Of a stretch of 37,642 nucleotides of DNA, positions 10,699 through 37,046 are shown in pieces. Under the pieces are notes generated by a model. It was not told the DNA's origin. It was given only the letters and a program-made list of their open reading frames with translations, and did no database searches. The DNA lies in IMG/VR virus record IMGVR_UViG_3300045902_000819, positions 1-37,642 of that record; one strand, given 5' to 3'. A program made the translations under genes and the position numbers. The stretch's first letter is position 1. Each line of letters starts with the position of its first letter. Source of the stretch: a virus.

Positions 10699-12864
10699 TC
10701 ACCCTCGGCTCAGCTCGACGGCGTTGGGGCCGACGCTGAGGTTGAACAGGATCACGTCGTCGCTCTGCACCGGCGTCACCGCCACGTCCCAGCGCAGGAC
10801 CCCTGTGGCCTGGCCGTCCACCAGGCTCACCTGGTAGTCCTCGACGGTGTCACCCACCAGGCTGTCCAGGAACCCCTCGATGGCGGCGCGCTGGCGTTCG
10901 CGTCGGGCCACGGTCCCCTGGCGCTTGGCCTGCGGAAGCAAAAAGCTCGCGCAGGAGTCGCCGATGAAATCCGCCAGCGTCTTGCGGCTGATGTCGACCC
11001 GGGACGGATCCGCCGATGGATCGACAGAGGTCACCCCCTGCTCGAAGGTGACCCCGTTCTGGGCGTCGAAGAACGCTCCGCAGATTCCCGCCCGCTTGAA
11101 GGCTGCGTAGGTCGTGAGATCCCAGCTCTGCGCTACCGTCTCCAGGCCAGGGAAGAGCGAGGGCGAGTAGCGCAGCACCGGCTCCTCGGGGAGCTGCCCG
11201 GGGTTGTAGCCCGGCGTGAGGCTACCCCAGCGCGCGGCGAGGAGCGCGTCCGGGTGGCGGACAGCGACCCCGTCGGTGCTGTGCCCGCCGTCGATAAGCT
11301 CCTGGTAGAAGCACCGCACCCCGCCGGCGGCGTAGGCTACCTCCTCGGCGCGGGTCGCCCCGACGCCCGGGGCGGCGCTGCCGATGATCGTCGTGGCGCT
11401 GGTGCCGTTGGGCGGGCAGAGGAACGCTCGCCGGCCAAAATGCCCGTTGGCGCTGGCGTCGAGGGCGTTCTGCCGCAGACGGGCCCGGATGGCGTTCGAT
11501 TGCCGGGCCGAGAGGATCCCGTTCGCCTTCTTCGTGGCGTCGTTGGTGATTCCGAGGGTGGCGTCGATGGCCGCGAGGTACCGGCTGTCGAGCTGCGAGG
11601 CGGTGAGCGCCGCGGTGAGGGCGTCGTTGTTGGTGACGCTCCACTCCAGGTCGCCGGGCTTGTCCTCCATGGTGTCAATGGCGTCCGCCGCCACCCCCGC
11701 GTAGGTACCGTCGTCGACGGCGGGGCGAACCTTGACGTTGATGCTGGCGGTGCTGCCCGCGGCGGCGCTCTTGGTCTGCATGGTGACGACGCGGGTGGCG
11801 TCCGCGCCGCCGTCGGAGCAGCGGAGCCCCGCCGGCAAGGAGATCGCGGAGGGCAGGGCGGCGGTCACCGCGTCGCCCGCAACGAACCCCAGAAGCGCCG
11901 CTGCGGTACCGCCGACGATCTGGACAGAGCCCGTGCCTGCGGCGGTGCTCACCAGCCGGGGGAACCCTGCGCTCCCGGTGGTCATGACGCGACCGGCGGC
12001 ATCCACCTTGGCCTTCAGCTCGGCGAAGGTCATGAGCGAGATGTCCGCGGCGTCTCCGGTGCCGCTCACGTCCTCGTCGTCGGCGGGCGACGAAGAACCC
12101 GACGTGAGGCCCAGGGTAGCCGCGGTCGAGCTGGCCTTGACGTAGACACGGCTGGCGGTTCCCTTCCTCAGCGAGGTGATCCGGAGCTCGCCGCTGGCGT
12201 TGCTGGCGATGGTGGCGCCATAGGTCGCGTTGATCCGGGAGATGATCTCGGCAAGGGTGTCGTCTCCGGCCTGAAACACCACCTCGAAGGTCGCCCCGTC
12301 GTCGATGGCCAGCTCGAGCACCTCGCCGCCGGTGAAGGCGTTGTAGGTGCCGCTGGTGGCCGTATGCACCGCCGCCGTCGCGGCGAAGGTGACCGTGACG
12401 GTGCTGCCTCCGTTGATTTTGAACTGGAAGGTCAGCCCATCGTCGAGGGCAAAGGGCCCTTTGAGGGTGCCCTCGACGAAGGCCCGCGGGGTGAGGGTCA
12501 CCTCGCCGATGGAGCTGTCGACCCGGCAGAACACCAGGCCCCCGCCAAACACCAGGCGCGCGGTCTGGAGCCAGCCGTTGCCGTTCCAGGGCTCGCTCCC
12601 GCCGCTCTGCTTGGCGCAGGGGTACTGGTGCTTCTGCGAGCCGTAGGTGTAGCCGAAAAGGCCAAACTTGGTGGCCTGGTCCGAGCTGGTGAGCAGCTCG
12701 GTAGGGACGTTGAACTCTCCGTCCTCAAACTCCCCCACGACGATGATTTTTCCGAAGGGGGCTGCGTTGACCGGACGGGCCGGTGGGGCGTCGACCAGCA
12801 CCACACCGGACACGGCGAGGAGGACGGCAAGGGAGGGGAGTGCAGAAAAGCGACGGATGAACAT
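10699..12864 (-). CDS. Contractile tail sheath protein, enlarged
   Basis: At 721 aa this is much longer than usual sheaths (about 390-500). The N-terminal sheath signature is visible around residues 20-60 (GVVLVDAPPARPV, then IIVVGEFEDGEFNVP). The C-terminal 300 residues carry the conserved sheath core, with FKRAGICGAFF and LADFIGDSCASFLLPQAKRQG. Residues about 125-400 appear to be a surface insertion. Within it, 176-254 resembles a flagellar hook-IN-type motif (TLAEIISRINATYGA, GELRITSLRKG). The ATG at 12864 has GGAGG 5 bases upstream and makes the first 24 residues a basic plus hydrophobic leader, which is unusual for a sheath. The sheath contracts to drive the tube into the host. Confidence 0.85.
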   Translation of the reverse strand: MFIRRFSALPSLAVLLAVSGVVLVDAPPARPVNAAPFGKIIVVGEFEDGEFNVPTELLTSSDQATKFGLFGYTYGSQKHQYPCAKQSGGSEPWNGNGWLQTARLVFGGGLVFCRVDSSIGEVTLTPRAFVEGTLKGPFALDDGLTFQFKINGGSTVTVTFAATAAVHTATSGTYNAFTGGEVLELAIDDGATFEVVFQAGDDTLAEIISRINATYGATIASNASGELRITSLRKGTASRVYVKASSTAATLGLTSGSSSPADDEDVSGTGDAADISLMTFAELKAKVDAAGRVMTTGSAGFPRLVSTAAGTGSVQIVGGTAAALLGFVAGDAVTAALPSAISLPAGLRCSDGGADATRVVTMQTKSAAAGSTASINVKVRPAVDDGTYAGVAADAIDTMEDKPGDLEWSVTNNDALTAALTASQLDSRYLAAIDATLGITNDATKKANGILSARQSNAIRARLRQNALDASANGHFGRRAFLCPPNGTSATTIIGSAAPGVGATRAEEVAYAAGGVRCFYQELIDGGHSTDGVAVRHPDALLAARWGSLTPGYNPGQLPEEPVLRYSPSLFPGLETVAQSWDLTTYAAFKRAGICGAFFDAQNGVTFEQGVTSVDPSADPSRVDISRKTLADFIGDSCASFLLPQAKRQGTVARRERQRAAIEGFLDSLVGDTVEDYQVSLVDGQATGVLRWDVAVTPVQSDDVILFNLSVGPNAVELSRG

Positions 12865-15072: not shown

Positions 15073-16530
15073 TCACCAGTCGGAGCCGTACTCGAGGCCG
15101 ACCGCGCGTTTGAACGGCGTCTGGTCGTTGGCGTTTGCCACGCTGAAGACGTCCGACGGCAGCACGAAGTCGAAGTAGTTGACCACGGTGATGCTGCACA
15201 CCATCGCCCGCTCGTCCAGCGGCGGTCGAATCATCAGCACCCACCCGTCCAGGTTGCCCGCGAGGAAGGGACGCCCGTTGATGTCGTAGACAGCCATCTG
15301 GCCCAGCTCGTGGATGACCCTCGCGCCGCCCGCTTCGAGCACCTTGCGGTGGTCGATGAACGCTTCCGTGAGCACGTCCTCGCCGGTCAGGATGGCGCGG
15401 CGGATGGCAACGCCGGAGCTGTTGACCAGCGGCAGGCCGATGTCCTCCATCTGGACGCTGCTGCCGTGGGCCTTCCAGGAGACCTCGCGGCCCTTGCCGA
15501 GCCCGGGGGAGTCGTTGTTCTCCAGGATGGTGATGCCCTCGGCGCCGCTGAAGAACGAACCCGCGCCGAAGATCGGGGACATCCCCGCACCCTGGAACGC
15601 GGTGCGGTAGGCCGCGTCCTGGGTGATCTTCTCGCGGAAGGTTGCGTCGACGTGAAGGTGGTAGGTGCCGGTGCTGCGGTGGGGCCGCACGCCGCGGTCC
15701 ACCAGGCGCTGGCGCATCTTGAGGATGTCGTTGTACGTCGGCAGGTCAGTGGACAGGATCGCCTGGGTGCTGGCGCGGTTGGCGGCGCGCACGATGAAGG
15801 GCGCCTGAAGCGGCACGCTGGCGTTGCGCTGGACGAAGCAGTAACTCCCCGCGGCGACCTCGGCGCCGAGCGCGCCGTCGAGGGTGAGGGTACCGGGTCC
15901 GTCCGGGTAGTTGGGATCCCGAGGGGTAACGCCGGTGACAGAGCGGTTGGTGATGTCGCTGGCGGCCCGGATGGTGATCTTGATCGGGTTGGCGGCGCTC
16001 ACCGCCACTGGCAAGCCGTCGACGTACTTGAAGCGGAAGCCGGAGAGGCTGTCCACGTCGAGGATGGTGGCGCTGTCCGCATGCGTGGTGCGGATGACCG
16101 TGTGCCCGGCGAAGGCGCCGGAAAACAGCTTGCCGCGGGCCATGCGGGACGAGGTGCGCCCGGCCCACTCGGCGAGGCGGGTGACGGCCTGCTCGGGCTT
16201 CTTCCCGACGGTCTGGACGTAGGCGTCCATGGCGCTGAGGTCGATGGACTTGGCAAACGCCACGGGGTTGGCCGTGTAGCGCTCGACCTCGTAGCTGCCG
16301 CGGTCGGTGGCCCCCAGCGTCTCGGCGGCCTTCAGATCGACGTCAAGCAGGCCAAGACGGGAGAAATTCAGAGAAGTGCCGGTGCCCGGAGGCAGCTCCT
16401 CGCGCCTCGCGTCCGCGCGGTACCGCGCCTCGGGACGGAGAGCTTCGTCCGCCATCCGCACAAGGGCGTTCTGCTGGATCAGGTTGGCGAGGGAGGGAGG
16501 GGTGCCGACGGGGATCAGAGAAGGGGGCAT
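15073..16530 (-). CDS. Major capsid protein
   Basis: The 485-aa product follows the scaffold gene and precedes the connector genes, as expected for the major head protein. It contains an N-terminal arm (residues 1-60), a long helix (about 85-130, FAKSIDLSAMDAYVQTVGKK) and alternating strands through the middle. Near the C terminus is a hydrophobic domain with WVLMIRPPLDERAMV and YFDFVLPSDVF. An HK97-like fold is expected for a tailed phage. The size is larger than the minimal HK97 capsid protein (about 385 aa), perhaps because of an inserted beta domain around 150-250. No protease gene is evident beside it. Confidence 0.75.
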   Translation of the reverse strand: MPPSLIPVGTPPSLANLIQQNALVRMADEALRPEARYRADARREELPPGTGTSLNFSRLGLLDVDLKAAETLGATDRGSYEVERYTANPVAFAKSIDLSAMDAYVQTVGKKPEQAVTRLAEWAGRTSSRMARGKLFSGAFAGHTVIRTTHADSATILDVDSLSGFRFKYVDGLPVAVSAANPIKITIRAASDITNRSVTGVTPRDPNYPDGPGTLTLDGALGAEVAAGSYCFVQRNASVPLQAPFIVRAANRASTQAILSTDLPTYNDILKMRQRLVDRGVRPHRSTGTYHLHVDATFREKITQDAAYRTAFQGAGMSPIFGAGSFFSGAEGITILENNDSPGLGKGREVSWKAHGSSVQMEDIGLPLVNSSGVAIRRAILTGEDVLTEAFIDHRKVLEAGGARVIHELGQMAVYDINGRPFLAGNLDGWVLMIRPPLDERAMVCSITVVNYFDFVLPSDVFSVANANDQTPFKRAVGLEYGSDW

Positions 16531-16546: not shown

Positions 16547-17227
16547 TCAAACGTTGTGTTCCTGGCGCCATTTCTTCCACTCCTCGGCGCTGAGCTTGCT
16601 CGCGTCGAAGGTGAGGCCGTTGCTCGCGCCGTTGCTGCCGTGGGAGGCGTTGCCCCCGAGTGCGCTGGTGCCGGTGGTGGCAGGCTGGGGGGCGTCCTTG
16701 GTGAAAAAGTAGGGGCGCCTCTCCCGGAGCTGCTTGAAGAACTTGGCCTCGTCGAAGGCCTGGCCTGCCTTCTTCGCGGCAGCCTCTGCGTCGCTCAGCT
16801 CGACCTGGACGAACTTTCGTTCGCCAGGGAGCACGCCCTGGGCGTCGAGCCGGTCACGGAGCGCAAGGGCGTCTTCCGCGGCTTTGCGCGCGGCTTTCTC
16901 CGCCTCGTACTTCGCCTCCGCTTTGCCGCGCGCGTCGAGGGCTTCGTTGTAAAGCTTCTTTTGCCTGTCCAGCTCAGAGAGCTTGGCGTCCTCGGCCTTC
17001 TTCTTCTCGTCGAGGTGGACCTTGTAGGCGTCCTCGCTGTCGAAACCGAGGTCCTTGAGCACCGCGAGACGGGCCTCTGCCTTGACCTTCTCCGGATCGA
17101 CGGTAGGAGGAGGCGTCTTGGGTGGCGGCGAGGGAGCGGGAGGCGCAGGGGCGCTCCCACCAGCGCCACCGTCCTCTTCGACAGCGGCAAGGCAGGGCGC
17201 GAGCCCGAGGAGAGTACGACCGAACAT
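16547..17227 (-). CDS. Capsid scaffolding protein
   Basis: The 226-aa product is highly charged and helical. A Pro-rich segment (about residues 25-45) is followed by a long Lys/Glu/Ala-rich coiled coil over about 48-140 (KKAEDAKLSELDRQKKLYNE and KAEAKYEAEKAARKAAED). A Gly/Ser/Asn-rich stretch leads to a short basic C-terminal helix (LSAEEWKKWRQEHNV). This architecture, and the position directly before the major capsid gene, are typical of phage scaffolds, whose C-terminal helix binds the capsid protein. It lacks a visible protease domain. Confidence 0.8.
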   Translation of the reverse strand: MFGRTLLGLAPCLAAVEEDGGAGGSAPAPPAPSPPPKTPPPTVDPEKVKAEARLAVLKDLGFDSEDAYKVHLDEKKKAEDAKLSELDRQKKLYNEALDARGKAEAKYEAEKAARKAAEDALALRDRLDAQGVLPGERKFVQVELSDAEAAAKKAGQAFDEAKFFKQLRERRPYFFTKDAPQPATTGTSALGGNASHGSNGASNGLTFDASKLSAEEWKKWRQEHNV

Positions 17228-18445: not shown

Positions 18446-18465
18446 CTACTGTGCCAAGATGTGCC
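18446..18465 (+). promoter_or_regulatory. Tandem 10-bp repeat, candidate operator B
   Basis: Units CTACTGTGCC and AAGATGTGCC end two bases before the ATG at 18468. No Shine-Dalgarno sequence is visible because the repeat occupies that position. Site C has exactly the same two-base gap to its ATG. Binding here would block transcription or ribosome access for the RHH gene and suggests autoregulation. Confidence 0.6.
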
Positions 18466-18467
18466 TC

Positions 18468-18662
18468 ATGGGCGAAGCCGAGAAAGAGACGGAAAAAGAG
18501 ACCCTGCGGGTGCTGCTCGACGAGCAGCTTCGCCAGGACCTCGCCCGGGCCCGAGAGGTCACCGGAATCCGCAGCAACAGCGACCTGGTGAGGTACGCCT
18601 TGCGGCAGGTGGCGCGGAGGGCGCGTGAGGAGTTTCCCACGCCGGATCTCGGAAAACTCTGA
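18468..18662 (+). CDS. Ribbon-helix-helix (CopG/Arc-type) regulator
   Basis: The 64-aa product has the RHH layout: a charged N terminus, a short strand (ETLRVLLDE), helix 1 (QLRQDLARAREVTG), a turn with IRSNSD and helix 2 (LVRYALRQVARRAREEF). RHH proteins bind DNA as dimers through the N-terminal strand, and pairs of dimers occupy tandem sites. It is the only plus-strand gene inside the phage block, divergent from the left late operon. The ATG at 18468 is preferred because repeat B ends two bases upstream, as repeat C does at 25287. An in-frame ATG at 18459 lies inside the repeat. It probably controls late or packaging genes. Confidence 0.75.
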   Translation: MGEAEKETEKETLRVLLDEQLRQDLARAREVTGIRSNSDLVRYALRQVARRAREEFPTPDLGKL

Positions 18663-18767: not shown

Positions 18768-18965
18768 TTAGGATTTTTCCGAAGCGCGGTACTGCTCTTC
18801 CAGGCGTCGCACCAGTTCCGTGTCGTCGTCCTGAAGCATCAGCAGCACGTGGGCCATGTCCGGCGGGATCGTCTGCCCCCGCTCCCGGTACCAGCGGTGG
18901 ACCGCGAGGGCGCCCTCGATGTCGTTGCGATCCAGATCGGTGGTGGGTGGGGTCTCGGCGGTCAT
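18768..18965 (-). CDS. Small acidic protein downstream of the MuF fusion
   Basis: This 65-aa acidic protein overlaps the MuF-fusion stop by 4 bases (ATGA), so it is translationally coupled to it. It is likely all helical: a disordered N terminus (TAETPPTTDLDR), then IEGALAVHRWYRERG, PPDMAHVLLMLQDDD and ELVRRLEEQYRAS. I do not recognise a family. If the C-terminal domain of the upstream protein is toxic, a small acidic coupled gene is the expected form of an immunity protein; that is inference. Head accessory function is the alternative. Confidence 0.5.
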   Translation of the reverse strand: MTAETPPTTDLDRNDIEGALAVHRWYRERGQTIPPDMAHVLLMLQDDDTELVRRLEEQYRASEKS

Positions 18966-21136
18966 CGCAGGCTCCGGTCGGAGGCTACGGCATCCACGAA
19001 ACGGCGTCGAGCCTCGCCGGCGAGGTCCAGGGCGTCCGCGAGGGCGTCCAGGTGCGCCTCGGGGGTGCTGATCGCGGGTCGGTCGACCGACCGGAGGCGC
19101 CGAAACGCCTCGACCAGACGCCGCGGGGCGTCCTCGGGGGTGTCGATGGCGCGGGCCGTGTGGGCCACAAGCGGCTCGACGTAGTGGTTGTAGGAGGAGA
19201 TTGAGCTGTTCGCGGCGAACGTCACGATCTCCCCGCTCCGACTACGCCGCACCGTGGGCAGGGCGTAGGGGTGGCCCCCGGAGGGGGTGGTGACCCCCAG
19301 GAGCTTCGCCGCGGTGTCGCGGGCAAGAATCTCCGTCCCGGCTTCTTCCAGGCCTTTCCCGAAGGTCCGGTAGGCCCCTGGCGAGATGGGCGAGGCCCCG
19401 TGATATTCTTCGTGGAAGAAGGTCCGCAGCGCGTTGAGGGACTGGCGAGGGATCGAGGACTCCGTCTGCCCCCGGGCCATCGCCTGCATGGCCACCTGGG
19501 CCTCGACGGAGCGCTCTCGGGACACACGCACCCTGCCGTGCCAGCTGTGATCCGCATGGGCCCCGAGGATACCCTGGACTTTCTCTTCGTAGACCTCTGC
19601 CTGGGCGCGCCCCTGGACCACGTCCACGCTACGGGCGCCGTGGGCCTCGATCACGTCCCGGAGCACCCTCCGGACCCGAGCACCGTTGTCGGTCGCCCGC
19701 TCGGCAAGCGCTGCCTGGAGCTCAACGGCGAACGCCCGCGGGTCGGTGGCATGCGCCGCCCGGATCACCCGGGCCGGGATCTCCTTCGCGGCCCCCTGGG
19801 CGTCGCGGAGCGCGGCGGAGGCCATCAGCCGCAGCGCGTCCTCGTCGCTGGCCGGGAGGTACCGTCCTCCCCGGCTCACCAGGACCGGCGGCGCAGATCG
19901 ACCGGCGGCGAGTTCCAGGGCCGCGGCCTGGAGCTGCTCCGGCGTGAACGTGTGGCGCTCGCTCAGGGCCAGCCACCCTCGCGGCACGCTCTCCGGGGCT
20001 CCCGCCCGGGTCAGGTCGACGAAGCGCCGCGCTTCGATGAATGGCTCCCGCTGACTGAGGGCCATCAGCCCCAGGCGCCAGGGGGAGACCGGGGCGCTTC
20101 CCCGGAGCGTGTGGGCGAGGGCCGCGAGTTGGTCCGGGGGCAAGGCCGGCGGGGGTGGCACCGGGGGGGGTGGAGGCGGTGCGGGAGGGGGCACAGGCGG
20201 CGCCACCACAGGGGCCGGAGCGACCACGGGAGCCGGTGGCGAGGCCTGGATCGAACGAGGAACCTCTGCGCCATCCTCCCAGGCGGCACGCCAGGGGATC
20301 TGCACCCCGCGGTCGTTGGGGCGCCCTGGGGGGTGGAGGTAGCGACGCCCGGCGCCGTCGACGAACACATCCTCGAGGTCCTTTACCTGCCCGTGGGCCG
20401 CCCGGCTGTCGTCCGCAGTGCGGGCATCGAAGGTTTCGATCAGTTTCTTTTGCAGGTCCGGGAACCTCGCCGCGCGCTGCGCCAGAGCCTCCTCATGCGC
20501 CCCAGCGTTGTAGGCAAACATCCCCTCCGTCCGCACGATCCTGGCGGCATCGCCGGCGGACTGGACCAGGGGGCCCGGGCCGGAGGTGAGGCGCCTCTTT
20601 ACCTCGTCGAAGGTGGCGCCTTCCAGAAGTCCACGCTGCATCACCCCGGCGATGCGCTCGATGGTTCGCAGCCCGTAGCGGGCCACGCTGGTTGCGTAGC
20701 GTTCAAGGAGCGGCTCCTGCGCGGCAACAGCAGCAGCGAGGGCGAGGGGACGGATCGGTCCTCCGGTCGCTCCCTCGAAGTGATGCAAGACCCCCACGGT
20801 ACCACGCGCCCCCAGCTCCCGGGCCCGAGCGCCGTTCTCCGCCAAGAGCGCCCGGAATGCGCGCCCCTGCCTCCCGAGCAGCTCGCGGACCTGGACAAGC
20901 GTGGCTTCGGTGTCGGCAGCGGTCCAGGTGTCTCCCCGGCCCTCGCGTTGCATCCTGTCGAGGCGGTCCCGCAGCTCACGCTCCAGCTCCAGGAGCTGCC
21001 GCACGAGCTGGCGCTTCGCCCGCTCGTTGAGACGCTCCACCCGGGCCCGGCTGGCGTCGAGCTGGGCCTGGATCTGCGACCGCGCCCGGGATGCTGGCAC
21101 GGGGCGTGTGAAGCTCTTGGGAACAACGGCGACCAT
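18962..21136 (-). CDS. MuF head morphogenesis protein fused to a HExxH C-terminal domain
   Basis: The 724-aa protein has three parts. Residues 20-65 are a charged coiled coil. The MuF-type minor head domain follows (about 145-280; ARIVRTEGMFAYNAGAHEE, DARTADDSRAAHGQV, HPPGRPNDRG). Residues 297-334 are a Pro-rich linker. The rest (335-724) is unrelated to ordinary MuF proteins and contains H575-E-E-Y-H579, with E597/E598 about 19 residues on, a zincin-like arrangement. MuF proteins bind the portal and are packed in heads. Some prophage MuF proteins carry toxic C-terminal domains delivered as polymorphic toxins. This one could deliver a peptidase, or the domain could mature the head. Its ATG overlaps the portal stop by one base. 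Confidence 0.75.
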   Translation of the reverse strand: MVAVVPKSFTRPVPASRARSQIQAQLDASRARVERLNERAKRQLVRQLLELERELRDRLDRMQREGRGDTWTAADTEATLVQVRELLGRQGRAFRALLAENGARARELGARGTVGVLHHFEGATGGPIRPLALAAAVAAQEPLLERYATSVARYGLRTIERIAGVMQRGLLEGATFDEVKRRLTSGPGPLVQSAGDAARIVRTEGMFAYNAGAHEEALAQRAARFPDLQKKLIETFDARTADDSRAAHGQVKDLEDVFVDGAGRRYLHPPGRPNDRGVQIPWRAAWEDGAEVPRSIQASPPAPVVAPAPVVAPPVPPPAPPPPPPVPPPPALPPDQLAALAHTLRGSAPVSPWRLGLMALSQREPFIEARRFVDLTRAGAPESVPRGWLALSERHTFTPEQLQAAALELAAGRSAPPVLVSRGGRYLPASDEDALRLMASAALRDAQGAAKEIPARVIRAAHATDPRAFAVELQAALAERATDNGARVRRVLRDVIEAHGARSVDVVQGRAQAEVYEEKVQGILGAHADHSWHGRVRVSRERSVEAQVAMQAMARGQTESSIPRQSLNALRTFFHEEYHGASPISPGAYRTFGKGLEEAGTEILARDTAAKLLGVTTPSGGHPYALPTVRRSRSGEIVTFAANSSISSYNHYVEPLVAHTARAIDTPEDAPRRLVEAFRRLRSVDRPAISTPEAHLDALADALDLAGEARRRFVDAVASDRSLR

Positions 21137-22731
21137 TACGCCGCAGCCTCTTCCTTCTCCGGCTTCTCGCTCGCCGGCGCTTCTTCCTCGTCTCCGTCTT
21201 CGACCGCCCCTGCCTTGCCCTCGGGGAGCTCCTGGAGGCCCATGGCGACGGCGGCTCGCTCGGCGCCAGCCATCTCGTCCGCCTCGATGGCGCGCAGTTC
21301 GTCGTCGACGTTGGAGATCGGCAGCGGGGTGCCTGCGAGCCAGGCGACGGCGGTGCGACGGCTGAGCACCTGCTTGCCTCCGGTGGCCAGGCTTGCCGCG
21401 GTGATCATCGCCTGCAAATCCGTCGGCGTGGGGGCGAACAGGTCAGGCCACACGCACTGAACAAATCGACTCTTTCCCGGGGCCCTCGGCTCGACCATCA
21501 CCTCACGACCCTCGCCTCGGGTGACTCGAGGGGGGAGCGCCAGTGCGAAACGTCGGCTCAAAAGAATCCGTGCGGCGTCCAGAAGCTTTTGACAGAGGGG
21601 CACGATCAGCCCCTTGGCGTAGTCTCGCCGGAGCCTCGCCGCGCTCTTGAGGGTACGCTGGAACAGTCGCTTGAGGGCCTCTCCCGAGGTCGCTCCCTTG
21701 AGGGTCTCGGCGTCGACCACCACGACCCCGCTCTGCCGGTAGACGTGCTGCGCCCGGCGCTCAGCGAGGCGCATGCACACCTCGGCGCTCTCTCCGCTCT
21801 GCGAGAGATACTCCGCGCCGCCGCGGGCGAAGATGGTGTTGAAACCTCCTTTGCGGACGGTTCCCGGGTTGAGCGCAGGATCTTCGCGGATGACCACAGT
21901 GTCGTCGGCGTTGCGCTTGGTGGTGGCGCCAGCGGCGGCGAACAGCTCGTTCACCTCGTCGATTTCCCCTTCCGTTCCCTCCCCGTCGGGAGCGCCGTCG
22001 TGGCCGCCGTCGCTGAACTGCGGGTGCCAGACGACGGGACAGAAGCCCAGCCCGTGTTCCACACGCTCCAGCAGCGTCCAGACCCATGGGTCGCGGCTAC
22101 CACTGGGAGCCTTGTCGCGCCTCAGGAGCACCTCGTCCGTCTCGCTCCAAAGGCGAGCCAGGAGCGGTCGATCCTCCGGGCGCATCGCCAGCGGCTCGTC
22201 CCCCAGGTACACCTTCGCCACCAACGAGGGAACGTGTTCATGCTCGTCGCGCCAGGCCAGCGGCCAGCAAAAGCGAGGGTTGTGATCCTGGACGACAGGA
22301 TGGCCGTTTCGGAAGGCGAAGCTCACCACGGCGGTCCCCATGGCTCCGCCGAAATCCCGGGCCCGGGCGATCACGTCGGCGAGGTTGGTCATGCTCGCCA
22401 CCGTGGCGAGCCAGTCTTCAGCGTCCCTGTCGTCCTCGACGGTCAGACGGCACCAGGCATCCCCTCCCAGCGTCCAGTCGGTCAGCTCGGAAACCACCTC
22501 GCCTCGGAGGTTCCACACGCACCCGGGATCCCGCTCGTCCCAACCAGGCGTGCGGCAGCCGGATCCGTAGACCCCGGGGGAGCTCTTCCTGTACCCGCTC
22601 GCGTCGAGGGGACGGTTTTCGTACTGCGACCCACGCCAGTAGGCTTCCAGCTCCGCGAGGCGCTGGGCGCGCAGCGTGTGCTGGAGGCGGTCGTTCTTGG
22701 CGAGATCGAGGAATGCGTCGAGGCTGGTCAT
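21136..22731 (-). CDS. Portal protein
   Basis: The 531-aa protein lies between large terminase and the MuF gene, the standard portal position. The N-terminal helix (LDAFLDLAKNDRLQHTL), a central wing domain and a long C-terminal helical stem region (ATSGEALKRLFQRTLKSAARLRRDYAKG) match portal architecture. The last 40 residues are Glu/Ala/Pro-rich and may be disordered. Portals form a 12-subunit ring at one vertex and dock terminase and connectors. Start is ATG 22731, 6 bases after the terminase stop. Confidence 0.8.
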   Translation of the reverse strand: MTSLDAFLDLAKNDRLQHTLRAQRLAELEAYWRGSQYENRPLDASGYRKSSPGVYGSGCRTPGWDERDPGCVWNLRGEVVSELTDWTLGGDAWCRLTVEDDRDAEDWLATVASMTNLADVIARARDFGGAMGTAVVSFAFRNGHPVVQDHNPRFCWPLAWRDEHEHVPSLVAKVYLGDEPLAMRPEDRPLLARLWSETDEVLLRRDKAPSGSRDPWVWTLLERVEHGLGFCPVVWHPQFSDGGHDGAPDGEGTEGEIDEVNELFAAAGATTKRNADDTVVIREDPALNPGTVRKGGFNTIFARGGAEYLSQSGESAEVCMRLAERRAQHVYRQSGVVVVDAETLKGATSGEALKRLFQRTLKSAARLRRDYAKGLIVPLCQKLLDAARILLSRRFALALPPRVTRGEGREVMVEPRAPGKSRFVQCVWPDLFAPTPTDLQAMITAASLATGGKQVLSRRTAVAWLAGTPLPISNVDDELRAIEADEMAGAERAAVAMGLQELPEGKAGAVEDGDEEEAPASEKPEKEEAAA

Positions 22732-22737
22732 GGGGGC

Positions 22738-24528
22738 TCACGCGGCGAGGCCCAGGAGCCTCCGGAGGTGGTCCGGGAGCGCCTGGGCGGGAGAGGGAGG
22801 TGGGGGCGCGGGAGGTGGCGCCGGGGTGCGCTCCGACGGGGCCGGGGCTGCGGGCTGGAAGATCGCCATGGTCGTTGCCCATGCCCCGAAGGCCTGGGCG
22901 TCGCGGTGCTCCGGAGGGGGCGTCGCCATCGCCGCGGCCTGGTCGTGGGTGAAGGTCTGGCCACCGGCCAGGACCAGCGCCCCCTGCTTGGCGAAATACG
23001 ACGCCATCACGTCATCGGGGGTGTGCCCGACGCGGGAGAAGTCCAACAGGTGCGCCTCCCAGTCGCGGATGGCGAGGTAGGCTTCCAGTTCGTCCGGGGC
23101 GAGGCGCACGCGATAGTCGGCTTCCTTGTCGCTGGCGGAGGGGGCTGGAATGATCCAGCGACCGGCGCGCATTTCGGCGCCGATGCCCTCGATTCCGAGG
23201 CTCTCGTGCCATTTCTGCGAGGTCGTGGAGAAATCGAGGATGGGCGTCTCCAGCCCACCCGCGCGAGCGAACTGCGCCAACGCCACCTGAGCGCCGTTGT
23301 CCTCGACGACGAAAAGATCCGGCCGGTACCGGTCATCGAGGAGCTTCAGGCGCTCGAGCGCCACATCGAAGGACCAGCGGCCTTTTTCGATCCAGAGCAC
23401 CTGCCGGGAGCCGTCGGGGTGGATGCCGAGGACGAAGAAGACGGTCTGGTCGGTTTTCCGCTTCCTCTCCGTCTTGCCTGTCGCCAGGTCGACGCCGATC
23501 GCCACGCGGAGCCGCTGGGCCATCAGTACACCCATCAGCTCCAGGTGCTCCGGGCGCAACAGGTTGCCCTGACGGTCGAAGTCGTGGCGCACGGTGCGCT
23601 GGGGACGTAGCCCGGCGCCGCGCTGACGTGCCGCCGCGAACCAGGCGGACTGGAAGATGCGTGTCGCGTCACTCCGCGGGCGGCACAGGTACATGCGCTC
23701 GAAGGAGGCGAGTGGCATCGACTCGCGCTCGGTGTTGAGCCAGGCCTGCGAGCGGAACGAAGGCCAGAGCAGCCTTCCTGTTTCGTCGATGGCGGGATAC
23801 GCCTTGTACCAGACGCCAGCGCGGCGGCTGTACTCGAAGGCCACATCGTTCTCATGCCAGGCGTTGGCGAGCATGAAAAACTGGCCTCGCGTGGTCTTGC
23901 GAGTACGGATCGCCAGGTCGATGAACGCGATCAGCTTTCTGCGCTGGTGCTCCGTCAGGCTGTTCTCAAAATCCACAACATCATCGGCGAGAACGATATC
24001 GGCGCGGGTGCCCTGGGGGCTGCTATCGAGGCCGTAGGTTTCGACGGTGTCGCTGGTGGTGTCGATGCCAGCACCGGCCAGGCGGATCCGGTCATCGGTC
24101 CACGGCAGTCCAGGCTTCAGCTCCGGGAACACCGCCTGGACCATGGGGTTGCTCTCGATCTGGCGGCGGATTTTCCGCAGGAGCTTTTTCGCGTTCTCCT
24201 GCTGTTTTCCCAGGAGCAGGACGCGAATCGTGGGCATCCGGCCCATGCGCCAGATCAGGTGGTAAATCACCTGCTCCGTCTTGCCGAAACCGGTGGCGCC
24301 GTGGATGACGACGATGGACTGTGTCGACCAGGCCGCCTGCCACTCGCGGTGAAATCCCTGCTGCTCGAAGGGCGGCATGCAGGGGTCCTGATCGTTGCGA
24401 GCGCACAGCTCAACGAAGGCGTTGACGTCCTCGCGAGCCCTCAGGGTGTCCTGCTGGATGAGCCGGAGCACCAGGTCCTGGCGCTCCTCGACGGTCAGGC
24501 CGTGCTCAACGAGGGCTCGTCGCGCCAT
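22738..24528 (-). CDS. terL: Terminase large subunit
   Basis: The 596-aa product shows both terminase domains. Walker A is GATGFGKT at residues 77-84 and Walker B is ADIVLADD around 176-183, together forming the packaging ATPase. The C-terminal RNase H-like nuclease shows acidic residues in RVAIGVDLATGKT, DLFVVEDNG and HTPDDVMASYFA. A Pro-rich tail ends the protein. It would cut concatemeric DNA and pump it into the head through the portal. The ATG at 24528 overlaps the end of the preceding gene by 23 bases. All key motifs look intact. Confidence 0.93.
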   Translation of the reverse strand: MARRALVEHGLTVEERQDLVLRLIQQDTLRAREDVNAFVELCARNDQDPCMPPFEQQGFHREWQAAWSTQSIVVIHGATGFGKTEQVIYHLIWRMGRMPTIRVLLLGKQQENAKKLLRKIRRQIESNPMVQAVFPELKPGLPWTDDRIRLAGAGIDTTSDTVETYGLDSSPQGTRADIVLADDVVDFENSLTEHQRRKLIAFIDLAIRTRKTTRGQFFMLANAWHENDVAFEYSRRAGVWYKAYPAIDETGRLLWPSFRSQAWLNTERESMPLASFERMYLCRPRSDATRIFQSAWFAAARQRGAGLRPQRTVRHDFDRQGNLLRPEHLELMGVLMAQRLRVAIGVDLATGKTERKRKTDQTVFFVLGIHPDGSRQVLWIEKGRWSFDVALERLKLLDDRYRPDLFVVEDNGAQVALAQFARAGGLETPILDFSTTSQKWHESLGIEGIGAEMRAGRWIIPAPSASDKEADYRVRLAPDELEAYLAIRDWEAHLLDFSRVGHTPDDVMASYFAKQGALVLAGGQTFTHDQAAAMATPPPEHRDAQAFGAWATTMAIFQPAAPAPSERTPAPPPAPPPPSPAQALPDHLRRLLGLAA

Positions 24529-33050: not shown

Positions 33051-35411
33051 ATGAGCCCCCTGTACGCCGGCCCCCTCTCCCCGCTCTGGGATGGGCTCGC
33101 GCCCCTGCTACGACGAGCGCGGGAGGTCGATGTCGCCGTCGCCTACGCCACCGTCCAGGGGGCCCGGCTGCTGCGCGGATCGCTGGAGCAAGCGCTCCGG
33201 GAGGGCGCCCGCGTGCGCCTTCTTGTTGGCTCCTACCTGGGCGGGACACGACCCGACGCGCTGCGAGAGCTGCTCGTCCTCGGTGGGATGGGGGCGCTGG
33301 TCCTCTTCATCGCTGACCCACACTTGCACTTCCACCCCAAGGTCTATCGAGTCGTCGACGGCGACGGCTTCGAGCACCTGTTTGTCGGGTCGTCCAACCT
33401 GTCGCGGAGCGCGCTCCTCGGGGGTCCGCACGTCCACGAGTGGACCCTCGGCCTCGAACGCGCGCAGGCCGGTCCCCTGATCGACGAGGCCCGCGAGCAC
33501 CTCGAACGCCTGTTCGCCTCCCTGGGCCAGCGCCTGACGCCGGAAGAGATCGAGCGCTTCGAGGAGAACCTGGCGCAAGCTCCGGCGCTCCCGCCTGCGG
33601 CCTTGCTCGACCCCGAGGAGCCTCCGGAGGGGTCATCGTTGACACCCAACGAGGCCCAGCGGCACGCCCTGGAATCACTGGCGCAGGCTCGCCAGCAGGG
33701 GCATCGGCGCGCGCTGGTGGTCGCCGCCACCGGCCTCGGCAAGACCTTGCTCGCCGCCTTCGATAGCCGAAACGTCCTCCCGGCGGGGGGCCGCCTCCTG
33801 GTGGTTGCCCACCGGCGAGGGCTGCTCGACCAGGCGGCCTCCGCCTTCGGCAGGGTGCGGGGAGACCACGAGTCGCAAGGGTTCGTCGATCAGGCCAGCA
33901 AGCAAAAGGACGCCGACCAGGTCTTCGCGTCGATCTTTTGCCTCGATACCTTCTCGGACCAGGAGCTTCGTGCCTTCGATTATGTGGTCATCGACGAGGC
34001 CCACCACGGCGCCGCGGCGAGCTACCGCCGCCTGTTCGAGGTGGCCTCGCCGCGCTTCTTGCTGGGCATGACCGCCACCCCCGAGCGCCTCGACGGCGCC
34101 GATGTCTACGCGCTCTTTCACGGCGTCGTGGCCTGCGAGGTGCAGCTCCTCGAAGGTATCCAGCGGGGCTGGCTGGTTCCCTTCGCTTACCGCGGCGTTC
34201 GGGATCCGGTCGACTACGACCAGCTCTCCTGGACCGGCGGAAAGCTCGGGTACTCCGCCGCTCAGCTCGACGCCGCGCTGCTCTCCGCGGCCCGCACGCG
34301 GGTTCTCCTCGCGGAGATGGGTGCTCCGCACGTCGATGCGTGCCGGACGCTCGTCTTCTGCGTCTCCATCGCCCACGCCACGCACACGGCGGAGGCGCTG
34401 GTCGCTGCTGGCTGGCAGGTCGCCCAGGTCCACAGCGGCCCCGGGGCGCTTGCCCCCGCCGCGGCCATCGACGCGCTCCGGCGCCGGCAGGTTCAGGCCA
34501 TCGTGGCGGTCGACATGTTCAACGAGGGGGTCGACATCCCCGAGGTGGACCGCATCGTGATGCTGCGGCCGACCGACTCGCCCACGGTCTTCCTGCAGCA
34601 GCTGGGACGAGGTCTACGCAAGGCCCCGGGCAAGGAGCGCCTGCTGGTCGTCGATCTGGTGGGGAACCACCGCCGCGCTGTGCAGAGGCTGACGTGGCTG
34701 GGGGTCGGGGAGGGCGTCGTGCGCAACGCTCCCGCCGGGCAGGCGCTGCAGGTCAAGCTGCCCGGCGGGAGCGAGGTCTCCCTCGACGTGGATGCGCTCG
34801 ACGCCGTGCAGGCCGTCTCCCGGGCCCTGGGCGGCCCGCGCGCTCGGCTCCGCGACGCCGTGGTGCGCCTGACCGAGCAGGCCGGACAGCGCCCGAGCCT
34901 CTCGGCGCTTCTGTCCGAGGCCGGCCTGTCGCTGACGACCCTGCATGCGCTGTTCGGAACCTGGCTGGAGCTTCTCTCGGCGGCGGGGTGCCTGTCCGAC
35001 GCCGACCGCAGGCTGCGAGCCTCCCCGGAGGCGGTCGCCATCCTGGAGGACGTCGAGGCGACCGAGATGACCGGCCCCCACAAGATGATCCTGCTGGGCG
35101 CCATGGGCCAAGACAGGCGCACCACGGTCTCCTTCGCCAAGGCGCGGGAGCTTTGCCCGCGGTACGCCGCCGGGCTTGATGCCTCCCTGTGGTCGTCCAT
35201 CAACCCGAAGAAATTCCCGGCCCCTTACCCTGTGGACATCCTGGTAGGAGCTCATGGCTCCTGGTGTCGCCGCGAGGGCGAGACGTTCTCCCTCGCCTTG
35301 CCGCCACCGCTTGAAGTGGATCTCCTCCCTGCGATCGCGGAGCGCGCCGAGGCCCGGCTGCGCGCGTGGCTCCGGAAGAAGAACCTCCCCGAGAAAGCCG
35401 CGAAGAGATGA
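33051..35411 (+). CDS. PLD-family nuclease fused to SF2 (DEAD/DEAH) helicase
   Basis: The 786-aa protein starts with a phospholipase-D-type nuclease domain: H95-P-K97 in HFHPKVYRVVDGDG, then GSSNLSRSALLGG (N116). A helicase follows, with Walker A ATGLGKT (226-232), DEAH at 315-318 in VVIDEAHHG, TATP at 341-344 and motif VI QQLGRGLRKAPGK. The C-terminal 200 residues are a separate accessory region. Such fusions resemble restriction-type, DNA-translocating effectors. The ATG at 33051 is the first that fits the conserved sequence; no Shine-Dalgarno is visible, and the frame stays open upstream through repeat copy 2. It overlaps a methyltransferase gene by 4 bases. A defence role is likely but unproved. 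Confidence 0.8.
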   Translation: MSPLYAGPLSPLWDGLAPLLRRAREVDVAVAYATVQGARLLRGSLEQALREGARVRLLVGSYLGGTRPDALRELLVLGGMGALVLFIADPHLHFHPKVYRVVDGDGFEHLFVGSSNLSRSALLGGPHVHEWTLGLERAQAGPLIDEAREHLERLFASLGQRLTPEEIERFEENLAQAPALPPAALLDPEEPPEGSSLTPNEAQRHALESLAQARQQGHRRALVVAATGLGKTLLAAFDSRNVLPAGGRLLVVAHRRGLLDQAASAFGRVRGDHESQGFVDQASKQKDADQVFASIFCLDTFSDQELRAFDYVVIDEAHHGAAASYRRLFEVASPRFLLGMTATPERLDGADVYALFHGVVACEVQLLEGIQRGWLVPFAYRGVRDPVDYDQLSWTGGKLGYSAAQLDAALLSAARTRVLLAEMGAPHVDACRTLVFCVSIAHATHTAEALVAAGWQVAQVHSGPGALAPAAAIDALRRRQVQAIVAVDMFNEGVDIPEVDRIVMLRPTDSPTVFLQQLGRGLRKAPGKERLLVVDLVGNHRRAVQRLTWLGVGEGVVRNAPAGQALQVKLPGGSEVSLDVDALDAVQAVSRALGGPRARLRDAVVRLTEQAGQRPSLSALLSEAGLSLTTLHALFGTWLELLSAAGCLSDADRRLRASPEAVAILEDVEATEMTGPHKMILLGAMGQDRRTTVSFAKARELCPRYAAGLDASLWSSINPKKFPAPYPVDILVGAHGSWCRREGETFSLALPPPLEVDLLPAIAERAEARLRAWLRKKNLPEKAAKR

Positions 35412-36008: not shown

Positions 36009-37046
36009 TCACCGCTCGCCGCCGAAGAAGCGGGCGAAGGGCACGGCAACCGGGAGGCCGTCGAGGGCGACCTCCCAGAGGTGCCGGAGCAGGGGCAGCT
36101 CGTCCAGGGAAAGCTGACCCCGGAGCTCGTAGGCGGCCAAACCGGCGCGGAGCGTCTCTAGGATGTCGAGGCACTCCAGGGTGGCCCCCTCCATGCGGGC
36201 AACGGCGTCCGGGACCGACAGGCCCATCCCCAGCAGCTTGCCGAAGCGTCCGGTGCGTCCTCCGTTGGTCGTCACGTCCAGGTCACCCACCCCGGGCAGT
36301 CCGGAGGCGCTCCGTGGATCGCCCCCCAGCGCCCCGACCAGCAGACCCATCTCCCGGATCGCCTGGGCAAAGACCGCGGACTCGTGGTTGTGCATGGCGA
36401 CGCTCCCGGGGACGCCGCCGCCCCGCTCATGGATGCCCAGCGCGAAGGCGATCCCCATGGCGTAGGCGTTCTTCAGCGCGGCGCACGCCTCGACGCCGAT
36501 CACGTCCTCGCTGGTGAAGACGTGGTAGTAAGGCCCCCGCAGCAGCACCGCGAGGCGATCCAGGGTGGGACGATCTTGACCCGCGAGCACCACGCAGGTC
36601 TCCACGCGGCGAGCGAGCTCTCCGGCGATGCAGGGGCCCGCGATGGCCGCAGCGTGGACCCCCAGCTCCGAGGAGACCAGCTCCGGGAAGGAGATCAGCC
36701 GGTCGTCCCGCCGCTCGAGGCCCTTGGTGATCAGGAAGATCGGCCAGCGCGCCGCGGCGAAGGGGCGGAGCTGCTCGATGGCCCACCGCACCCCCCGGGA
36801 GTTGACCCCCAGCGCCACCACGTCGGCGCCGTCGAGCGCCGCGGGGAGCTCGTCGTGGTGGAAGGCTCGGACCGCCCCCGGCAGCGGGTACTTCAGCCTG
36901 AGGTGCTCCCCGGTGCGCCGCAGGTGATCGAGGATGTCCCGATCCAGGTGCGTCCCCACCAGCCGCACCTCGTGCCCGCGATCGACCAGCGGTAGCGCCA
37001 GCGCGCTACCCATCATGCCTGCCCCGAGAATGACCGTCGTTGCCAT
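36009..37046 (-). CDS. gpsA: Glycerol-3-phosphate dehydrogenase-like protein (GpsA family)
   Basis: The 345-aa protein begins with a Rossmann NAD(P) loop (LGAGMMGSALALP). Further features are TKGLE, GPCIAGELARR and a catalytic region ALKNAYAMGIAFALG, as in NAD(P)+-dependent G3P dehydrogenase. The family reduces dihydroxyacetone phosphate to sn-glycerol-3-phosphate for phospholipids. Spacing of the later motifs is typical, including GVGDLDVTTNGGRTGRFG. The gene runs opposite to the methyltransferase and ends 13 bases from its stop. It is a host-type gene and marks the end of the mobile region. Upstream, 37047-37141 holds the shared promoter space with the next lipoprotein; no clear boxes are seen. 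Confidence 0.85.
   Translation of the reverse strand: MATTVILGAGMMGSALALPLVDRGHEVRLVGTHLDRDILDHLRRTGEHLRLKYPLPGAVRAFHHDELPAALDGADVVALGVNSRGVRWAIEQLRPFAAARWPIFLITKGLERRDDRLISFPELVSSELGVHAAAIAGPCIAGELARRVETCVVLAGQDRPTLDRLAVLLRGPYYHVFTSEDVIGVEACAALKNAYAMGIAFALGIHERGGGVPGSVAMHNHESAVFAQAIREMGLLVGALGGDPRSASGLPGVGDLDVTTNGGRTGRFGKLLGMGLSVPDAVARMEGATLECLDILETLRAGLAAYELRGQLSLDELPLLRHLWEVALDGLPVAVPFARFFGGER

Follow-up and report, generated by a model that had tools for sequence, protein, structure and literature searches.

We found that the gene at 18962..21136 (minus strand) of the window, by which we mean the whole 37.6 kb IMG/VR virus record that was analysed (70% GC), encodes a 724-aa minor head protein of the MuF type (P0001) with a C-terminal domain predicted to be a zinc endopeptidase of gluzincin fold. 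Our preferred reading, to which we give a probability of roughly 0.6, is that this domain is an exchangeable effector delivered by the virion and that a small gene directly downstream encodes its dedicated inhibitor or chaperone. The domain would thereby represent a family of zinc-peptidase effectors, attached to phage head proteins and absent from the family libraries searched, for which both mutable residues and a candidate partner can now be named. With a conserved pair of peptidase and partner in hand, the function and the injection of MuF cargo peptidases become testable questions.

The coordinates of the open reading frame were exact in the preliminary description, to which we add that the gene lies on the minus strand, as do its parts listed here. 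The MuF core, expected there at about residues 145-280, was recovered at residues 162-274 (20315..20653) with PF04233 (E 2.3e-7, above the curated cut-off) and at residues 145-271 with phrog_2468 (E 9e-11). It is followed by the 38-residue Pro-rich linker that had been described (residues 297-334, 20135..20248; 22 Pro were counted), by a low-confidence spacer (residues 335-464, 19745..20134; pLDDT mostly below 70) without a match to any family, including those of Pfam, and by the gluzincin domain (residues 465-724, 18965..19744). The fusion of a HExxH domain to MuF through such a linker was seen in the open reading frame itself, and the domain was MuF-linked in all relatives. Within the spacer, the segment PPVLVSRGGRYLPASDEDALRLMASAAL...IPARVIRAA looked by eye like a truncated ParB-like domain, and the MuF protein of locus L069 has a similar stretch.

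The gene is part of a head and packaging operon (minus strand), with the genes for the large terminase subunit TerL (22738..24528; phrog_38, E 2.7e-54) and the portal protein (21136..22731; phrog_64, E 1.3e-4) upstream, and those for a likely scaffolding protein (16547..17062; weak match to PF06810, E 0.05) and the major head protein (15073..16530; phrog_1357, E 6e-6) downstream. The scaffold assignment is supported by the related locus L071, in which a scaffold-like gene (phrog_206) lies downstream of the MuF gene. On the opposite strand, inside the operon and just beyond the small partner gene, we observed a 67-aa open reading frame (18459-18662, plus strand) that by eye resembles a ribbon-helix-helix regulator.

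No sequence model in Pfam, NCBIfam, PHROGs or the PDB covered the C-terminal domain, single-sequence searches with it gave nothing convincing in phages, plasmids, the PDB and GTDB contigs, and codon-level HEE[YF]HG...EE patterns recovered at most an identical contig. When 379 Myxococcota genomes, chosen from the host clue described below, were searched at the protein level, P0002 was found (E 1.8e-8); its MuF domain is clear (E 3.6e-22), and it shares its C-terminal domain with the window protein. Profiles built first from two and then from five sequences, run on viral contigs, led to further loci (L066, L067/L068, L069, L071, L072, L073, L074, L076/L077, L078, L079 and L082), and L103 was reached later via a search with the small partner gene. 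The peptidase domain was thus found in 13 other loci of diverse phages, each time behind a MuF or MuF-like core: PF04233 confirmed the core in P0002, L066, L074, L076, L078, L079 and L103 and was marginally below its cut-off in L071 (29.1 versus 29.6 bits), and the MuF-like core of L067, L069, L072, L073 and L082 was assigned by eye. The occurrence on other scaffolds, raised as a check in the preliminary description, therefore extends to these 13 MuF-borne loci but not to non-MuF toxin scaffolds, none of which carried the domain in a limited search of plasmids, the 379 Myxococcota genomes and, by degenerate patterns, viral contigs. The sharing of domains between toxin scaffolds that one would expect of polymorphic toxins was thus not seen within this scope. 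Four genome matches (L084, L085, L087 and L089) were inspected and discarded as unrelated (Clp/Lon, MCE, SPFH-like and another unrelated protein), and sequence matches to 2le1 and 7bqq were judged to be due to chance. In L074 (8182-10569), the MuF-peptidase is followed within the same protein by a weakly matching GNAT-acetyltransferase-like domain (PF13673, E 0.0037), possibly a case of two enzymatic tails on one protein.

The residues of the proposed zinc site were present exactly as claimed. H575-E576-E577-Y578-H579 (19400..19414, minus strand) would provide two zinc ligands and the catalytic Glu, H575, E576 and H579 being invariant in alignment A4, and in the invariant pair E597-E598 (19343..19348, minus strand) E598 is the predicted third ligand (HExxH-X18-E). 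A HExxH motif alone is weak evidence for a zinc site, because one arose in 70 of 2000 sequences made by shuffling residues 335-724; it is conservation that lifts it above chance. In a 13-row alignment of the window protein and 12 relatives (18-30% identical to it) the invariant columns were H575, E576, H579, E597, E598 and A605, an invariance for which the patterns used to fetch loci may account in part; eight loci match only the EE-helix pattern and L103 matches neither pattern, and HExxH is still present in all nine. Of the 14 members, 12 have X18 between HExxH and the second Glu, one of the remaining two has X19 and the other X22. Invariance extends from the ligands to the catalytic Glu, which speaks for an active enzyme.

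The AlphaFold2 model of the window domain had a pLDDT mostly above 90 at residues 465-724 and showed three strands together with the two helices that bear HExxH and EE. Both helices were also present in a second AlphaFold model, with L072 first, which was confident throughout (mean pLDDT 88.8, pTM 0.85). Structure comparison placed M1 aminopeptidases at the top for the window model (1z1w, Z 10.8, 4.3 A, 194 residues) and for the L072-first model (Z 11.1, 4.0 A, 186 residues), and the list for the latter continued with M4, M3, DPP III, MATCAP and selecase, all of them zinc peptidases, the first unrelated row having a Z of 3.0. Foldseek gave weaker results (best E 0.088, to the M4 protein ProA, prob 0.95) and no convincing match among viral structure models. 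Because invariant zinc residues go together with two models that match gluzincins (M1, M4, M3 and DPP III), the C-terminal domain is, as far as predicted structure goes, a gluzincin (clan MA(E)) with a HExxH-X18-E signature. This bears out the earlier zincin reading of the HExxH and EE residues, for which a predicted zinc site around His575/His579 had been named as a check. With the M1 aminopeptidases (Tricorn F3, LTA4H, PepN) and thermolysin-like M4 enzymes the models share the fold, the helix with HExxH and a Glu on the helix after it, and with M1 also the X18 spacing; the window domain differs from both in its size (about 260 aa), its low identity (about 9-14% over the aligned part) and its presumed place in a phage virion. 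M1 and M4 as sequence families were rejected, since none of 13 members matched the Pfam models at E up to 1. The domain would hence appear to work like M1 but to stand outside the M1 family, as fold and X18 agree and a Pfam M1 match is absent.

A further result concerned the MuF proteins to which the domain is attached. Between the MuF cores of L066 and of Thermus phage Riverbug, whose tail is a PBECR2 nuclease, identity is 44%, and between those of L066 and of p46 of Myxococcus phage Mx4, whose tail is an ATLF-type zincin, it is 32%; both alignments end where the MuF core ends. Meiothermus MMP7 also has the PBECR2 tail on this subtype, so that a single MuF subtype occurs with three tails, namely the gluzincin (L066/L103), PBECR2 (Riverbug, MMP7) and the ATLF zincin (Mx4), an exchange seen on the subtype of these relatives and not on the window's own. 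Queries with the MuF cores of L072, L066 and L078 matched 1300, 296 and 928 phage records, respectively, and a query with the peptidase domain of L072 matched none. Since one MuF subtype carries other tails as well, the gluzincin domain appears, from these comparisons, to behave like an exchangeable effector cassette. The general notion that MuF proteins bear varied effector C-termini is thereby borne out for the L066 subtype, and the possibility, also raised earlier, that the C-terminal region is merely that of an ordinary head protein was not borne out. Protein p46 of Mx4 (L105), a cultured myxobacterial phage, is annotated as hypothetical, and its ATLF-type tail was recognised with PF07737 (E 2e-6).

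The small partner gene of the window (18768..18965, minus strand; 65 aa) has a start that overlaps the stop of the MuF gene (ATGA) and a homologue at the same place in relatives. Nearly every relative has an open reading frame of 57-71 aa directly downstream of the MuF-peptidase gene, and the small proteins of the window and its relatives are mostly acidic. Homology was found at ten loci (held-out HMM scores of 27-72 bits versus at most 14.1 bits, 999 shuffles each), for which one reading frame out of a few candidates per locus had been selected before scoring, on the basis of its position and visual inspection; the window protein scored 39.2 bits versus 12.7 for its best shuffle. L078 and L069 have a reading frame of the same size at that place, for which homology was unsupported by the HMM. 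P0002 has the small-protein sequence fused to its MuF-peptidase as the C-terminal end (26.4 bits versus 9.1, held out). When viral contigs were searched with only the small gene, four loci were recovered, each with a MuF-peptidase upstream and one of them new (L103, whose small protein, outside the model, scored 61.6 bits). The small gene accompanies the peptidase across several MuF subtypes, and the small open reading frame downstream of the Mx4 gene is a non-member (-1.1 bits); the gene thus seems linked to the peptidase and not to MuF as such, although negative examples are still few. The fusion in P0002 suggests that the partner touches the enzyme, and a structural, subunit or chaperone role would explain it no less well than immunity would. 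The small protein is most likely a dedicated, immunity-like inhibitor or a chaperone-like loader of the peptidase, and most simply it would be an inhibitor, as IapK is for the MuF Apk2 toxins (PMC12226406).

MuF proteins belong to the structure of the head and bind DNA, with a presumed copy number of 2-3 per head (PMC12226406), and enzymatic domains on them have been proposed to be effectors delivered at infection (PMC5512222, PMC5576092). Because of this low copy number and DNA binding, we expect that the MuF-peptidase would be packaged in the phage head and enter the infected cell together with the DNA. The peptidase would then cut at least one host protein and so disarm a defence or a regulator, or slow growth; Jamet et al. 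already considered that MuF toxins of the peptidase type could act mildly, for instance on the lysis-lysogeny decision or on defence (PMC5576092). In the producing cell, the small protein would bind the peptidase and keep it inactive (immunity-like) or load it (chaperone-like). An experimental precedent exists in the MuF Apk2 toxins, the immunity protein of which, IapK, occludes the active site (PMC12226406). More tentatively, and with odds below even, the virion-delivered gluzincin and an inhibitor of about 65 aa may constitute a mobile two-gene cassette that spreads among unrelated phages by joining different MuF proteins, the inhibitor blocking the active site in the producer and staying behind on delivery.

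The domain might instead act at the linker, cutting the chain of which it is part or some other virion protein and so freeing MuF or an effector fragment, with no host target involved. Zincins in phage polyvalent proteins and in PVC-type toxins have indeed been proposed as releasing peptidases (PMC5512222, PMC3482391), and a long Pro-rich linker precedes the domain here. We nevertheless consider such self-processing unlikely, as the peptidase is usually the last domain, which usually leaves no further effector to be freed (the weak GNAT-like domain of L074 being the exception), and as the other tails found on one MuF subtype, including a nuclease, point to the tail as the active cargo. It is rather improbable, too, that the small gene encodes a minor head or connector component and that the peptidase domain is a decoration that has retained its zinc site. 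The fusion in P0002 and the location in the head operon would suit such a structural role, but the small gene tracks the peptidase over several MuF subtypes and is replaced by an unrelated one where the same subtype lacks this peptidase (Mx4), and the invariance of the catalytic Glu alongside the ligands points to an enzyme.

A head maturation protease that trims the scaffold or the capsid protein during assembly was also considered, given that no separate protease was detected in the head module of the window and that the gene is placed between those for portal and scaffold. This role is highly improbable and was rejected because relatives encode a separate, adjoining protease, as is the case in L072 and L078 (phrog_530, E 2.5e-75 and 3.3e-80, respectively) and in L067 (phrog_80/617); L103 has a ClpP-like one, and a gene in the P0002 locus resembles by eye that of L072. 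The domain thus occurs both in heads with their own protease and in scaffold-type heads (the window and L071), and many phages have the MuF core without it.

With respect to known systems, the combination of MuF with a metallopeptidase is known in kind, metallopeptidases already making up about 20% of MuF toxins (Jamet 2017, PMC5576092). The earlier remark that no MuF toxin with this C-terminal domain had been described consequently holds at the level of the domain, which matches nothing in Pfam, NCBIfam or PHROGs, but not for MuF metallopeptidase toxins as such. Neither the libraries nor the literature searched contained the domain family, its invariant signature, its assignment to the gluzincins or the small gene linked to it. 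The window locus shares with MuF polymorphic toxins (PMC5576092; Apk2, PMC12226406) an N-terminal MuF domain encoded in a packaging and head operon, a variable enzymatic C-terminus and a small open reading frame directly downstream; it differs in that its family is covered by none of these three libraries, the host is probably a myxobacterium, the toxin role is putative, and the small gene belongs to one conserved family whereas theirs are many unrelated immunity genes. Mx4 p46, a MuF protein from a phage of myxobacteria, also ends in a zinc peptidase, but this belongs to a different zincin family, and the small open reading frame downstream is unrelated. Tox-MPTase1-5 also have HExxH, and the HEELH of Tox-MPTase5 occurs in some members here, but they were reported on RHS and other secretion scaffolds and not on MuF (PMC3482391). 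The zincin-like MPTases of phage polyvalent proteins, for which delivery at infection is predicted as well (PMC5512222), belong to large polyvalent proteins, unlike the two-domain MuF protein described here, which has no Pfam zincin match. The Pfam models for Tox-MPTase, ATLF and polyvalent MPTase matched none of 13 members at E up to 1.

The queried genes of the window have identical copies in a second IMG/VR contig. At the right contig end lies a host-like gpsA gene (36009..37016, minus strand) that is 80% identical to that of the Polyangiaceae MAG Prado144 and has its best relatives in the Polyangiaceae, and the left part of the window contains an Ant/Bro-N antirepressor gene of the temperate-phage type (528..1304, plus strand; phrog_2011, E 1.9e-10). 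Neither an integrase nor direct att repeats above 14 bp were found in the window. Because of the gpsA gene and the antirepressor, it is likely that the phage is a prophage of a Polyangiaceae host, a soil myxobacterium, which makes the temperate setting assumed earlier probable. In the tail module, a 721-aa protein (10699-12864, minus strand), the sole match of which was phrog_15814 (function unknown), is a possible tail sheath. Genes for a HSDR_N endonuclease (1404-2609) and a PLD-ResIII helicase protein (33051-35411), both on the plus strand, flank the phage genes as cargo and are possibly defence genes or host flank.
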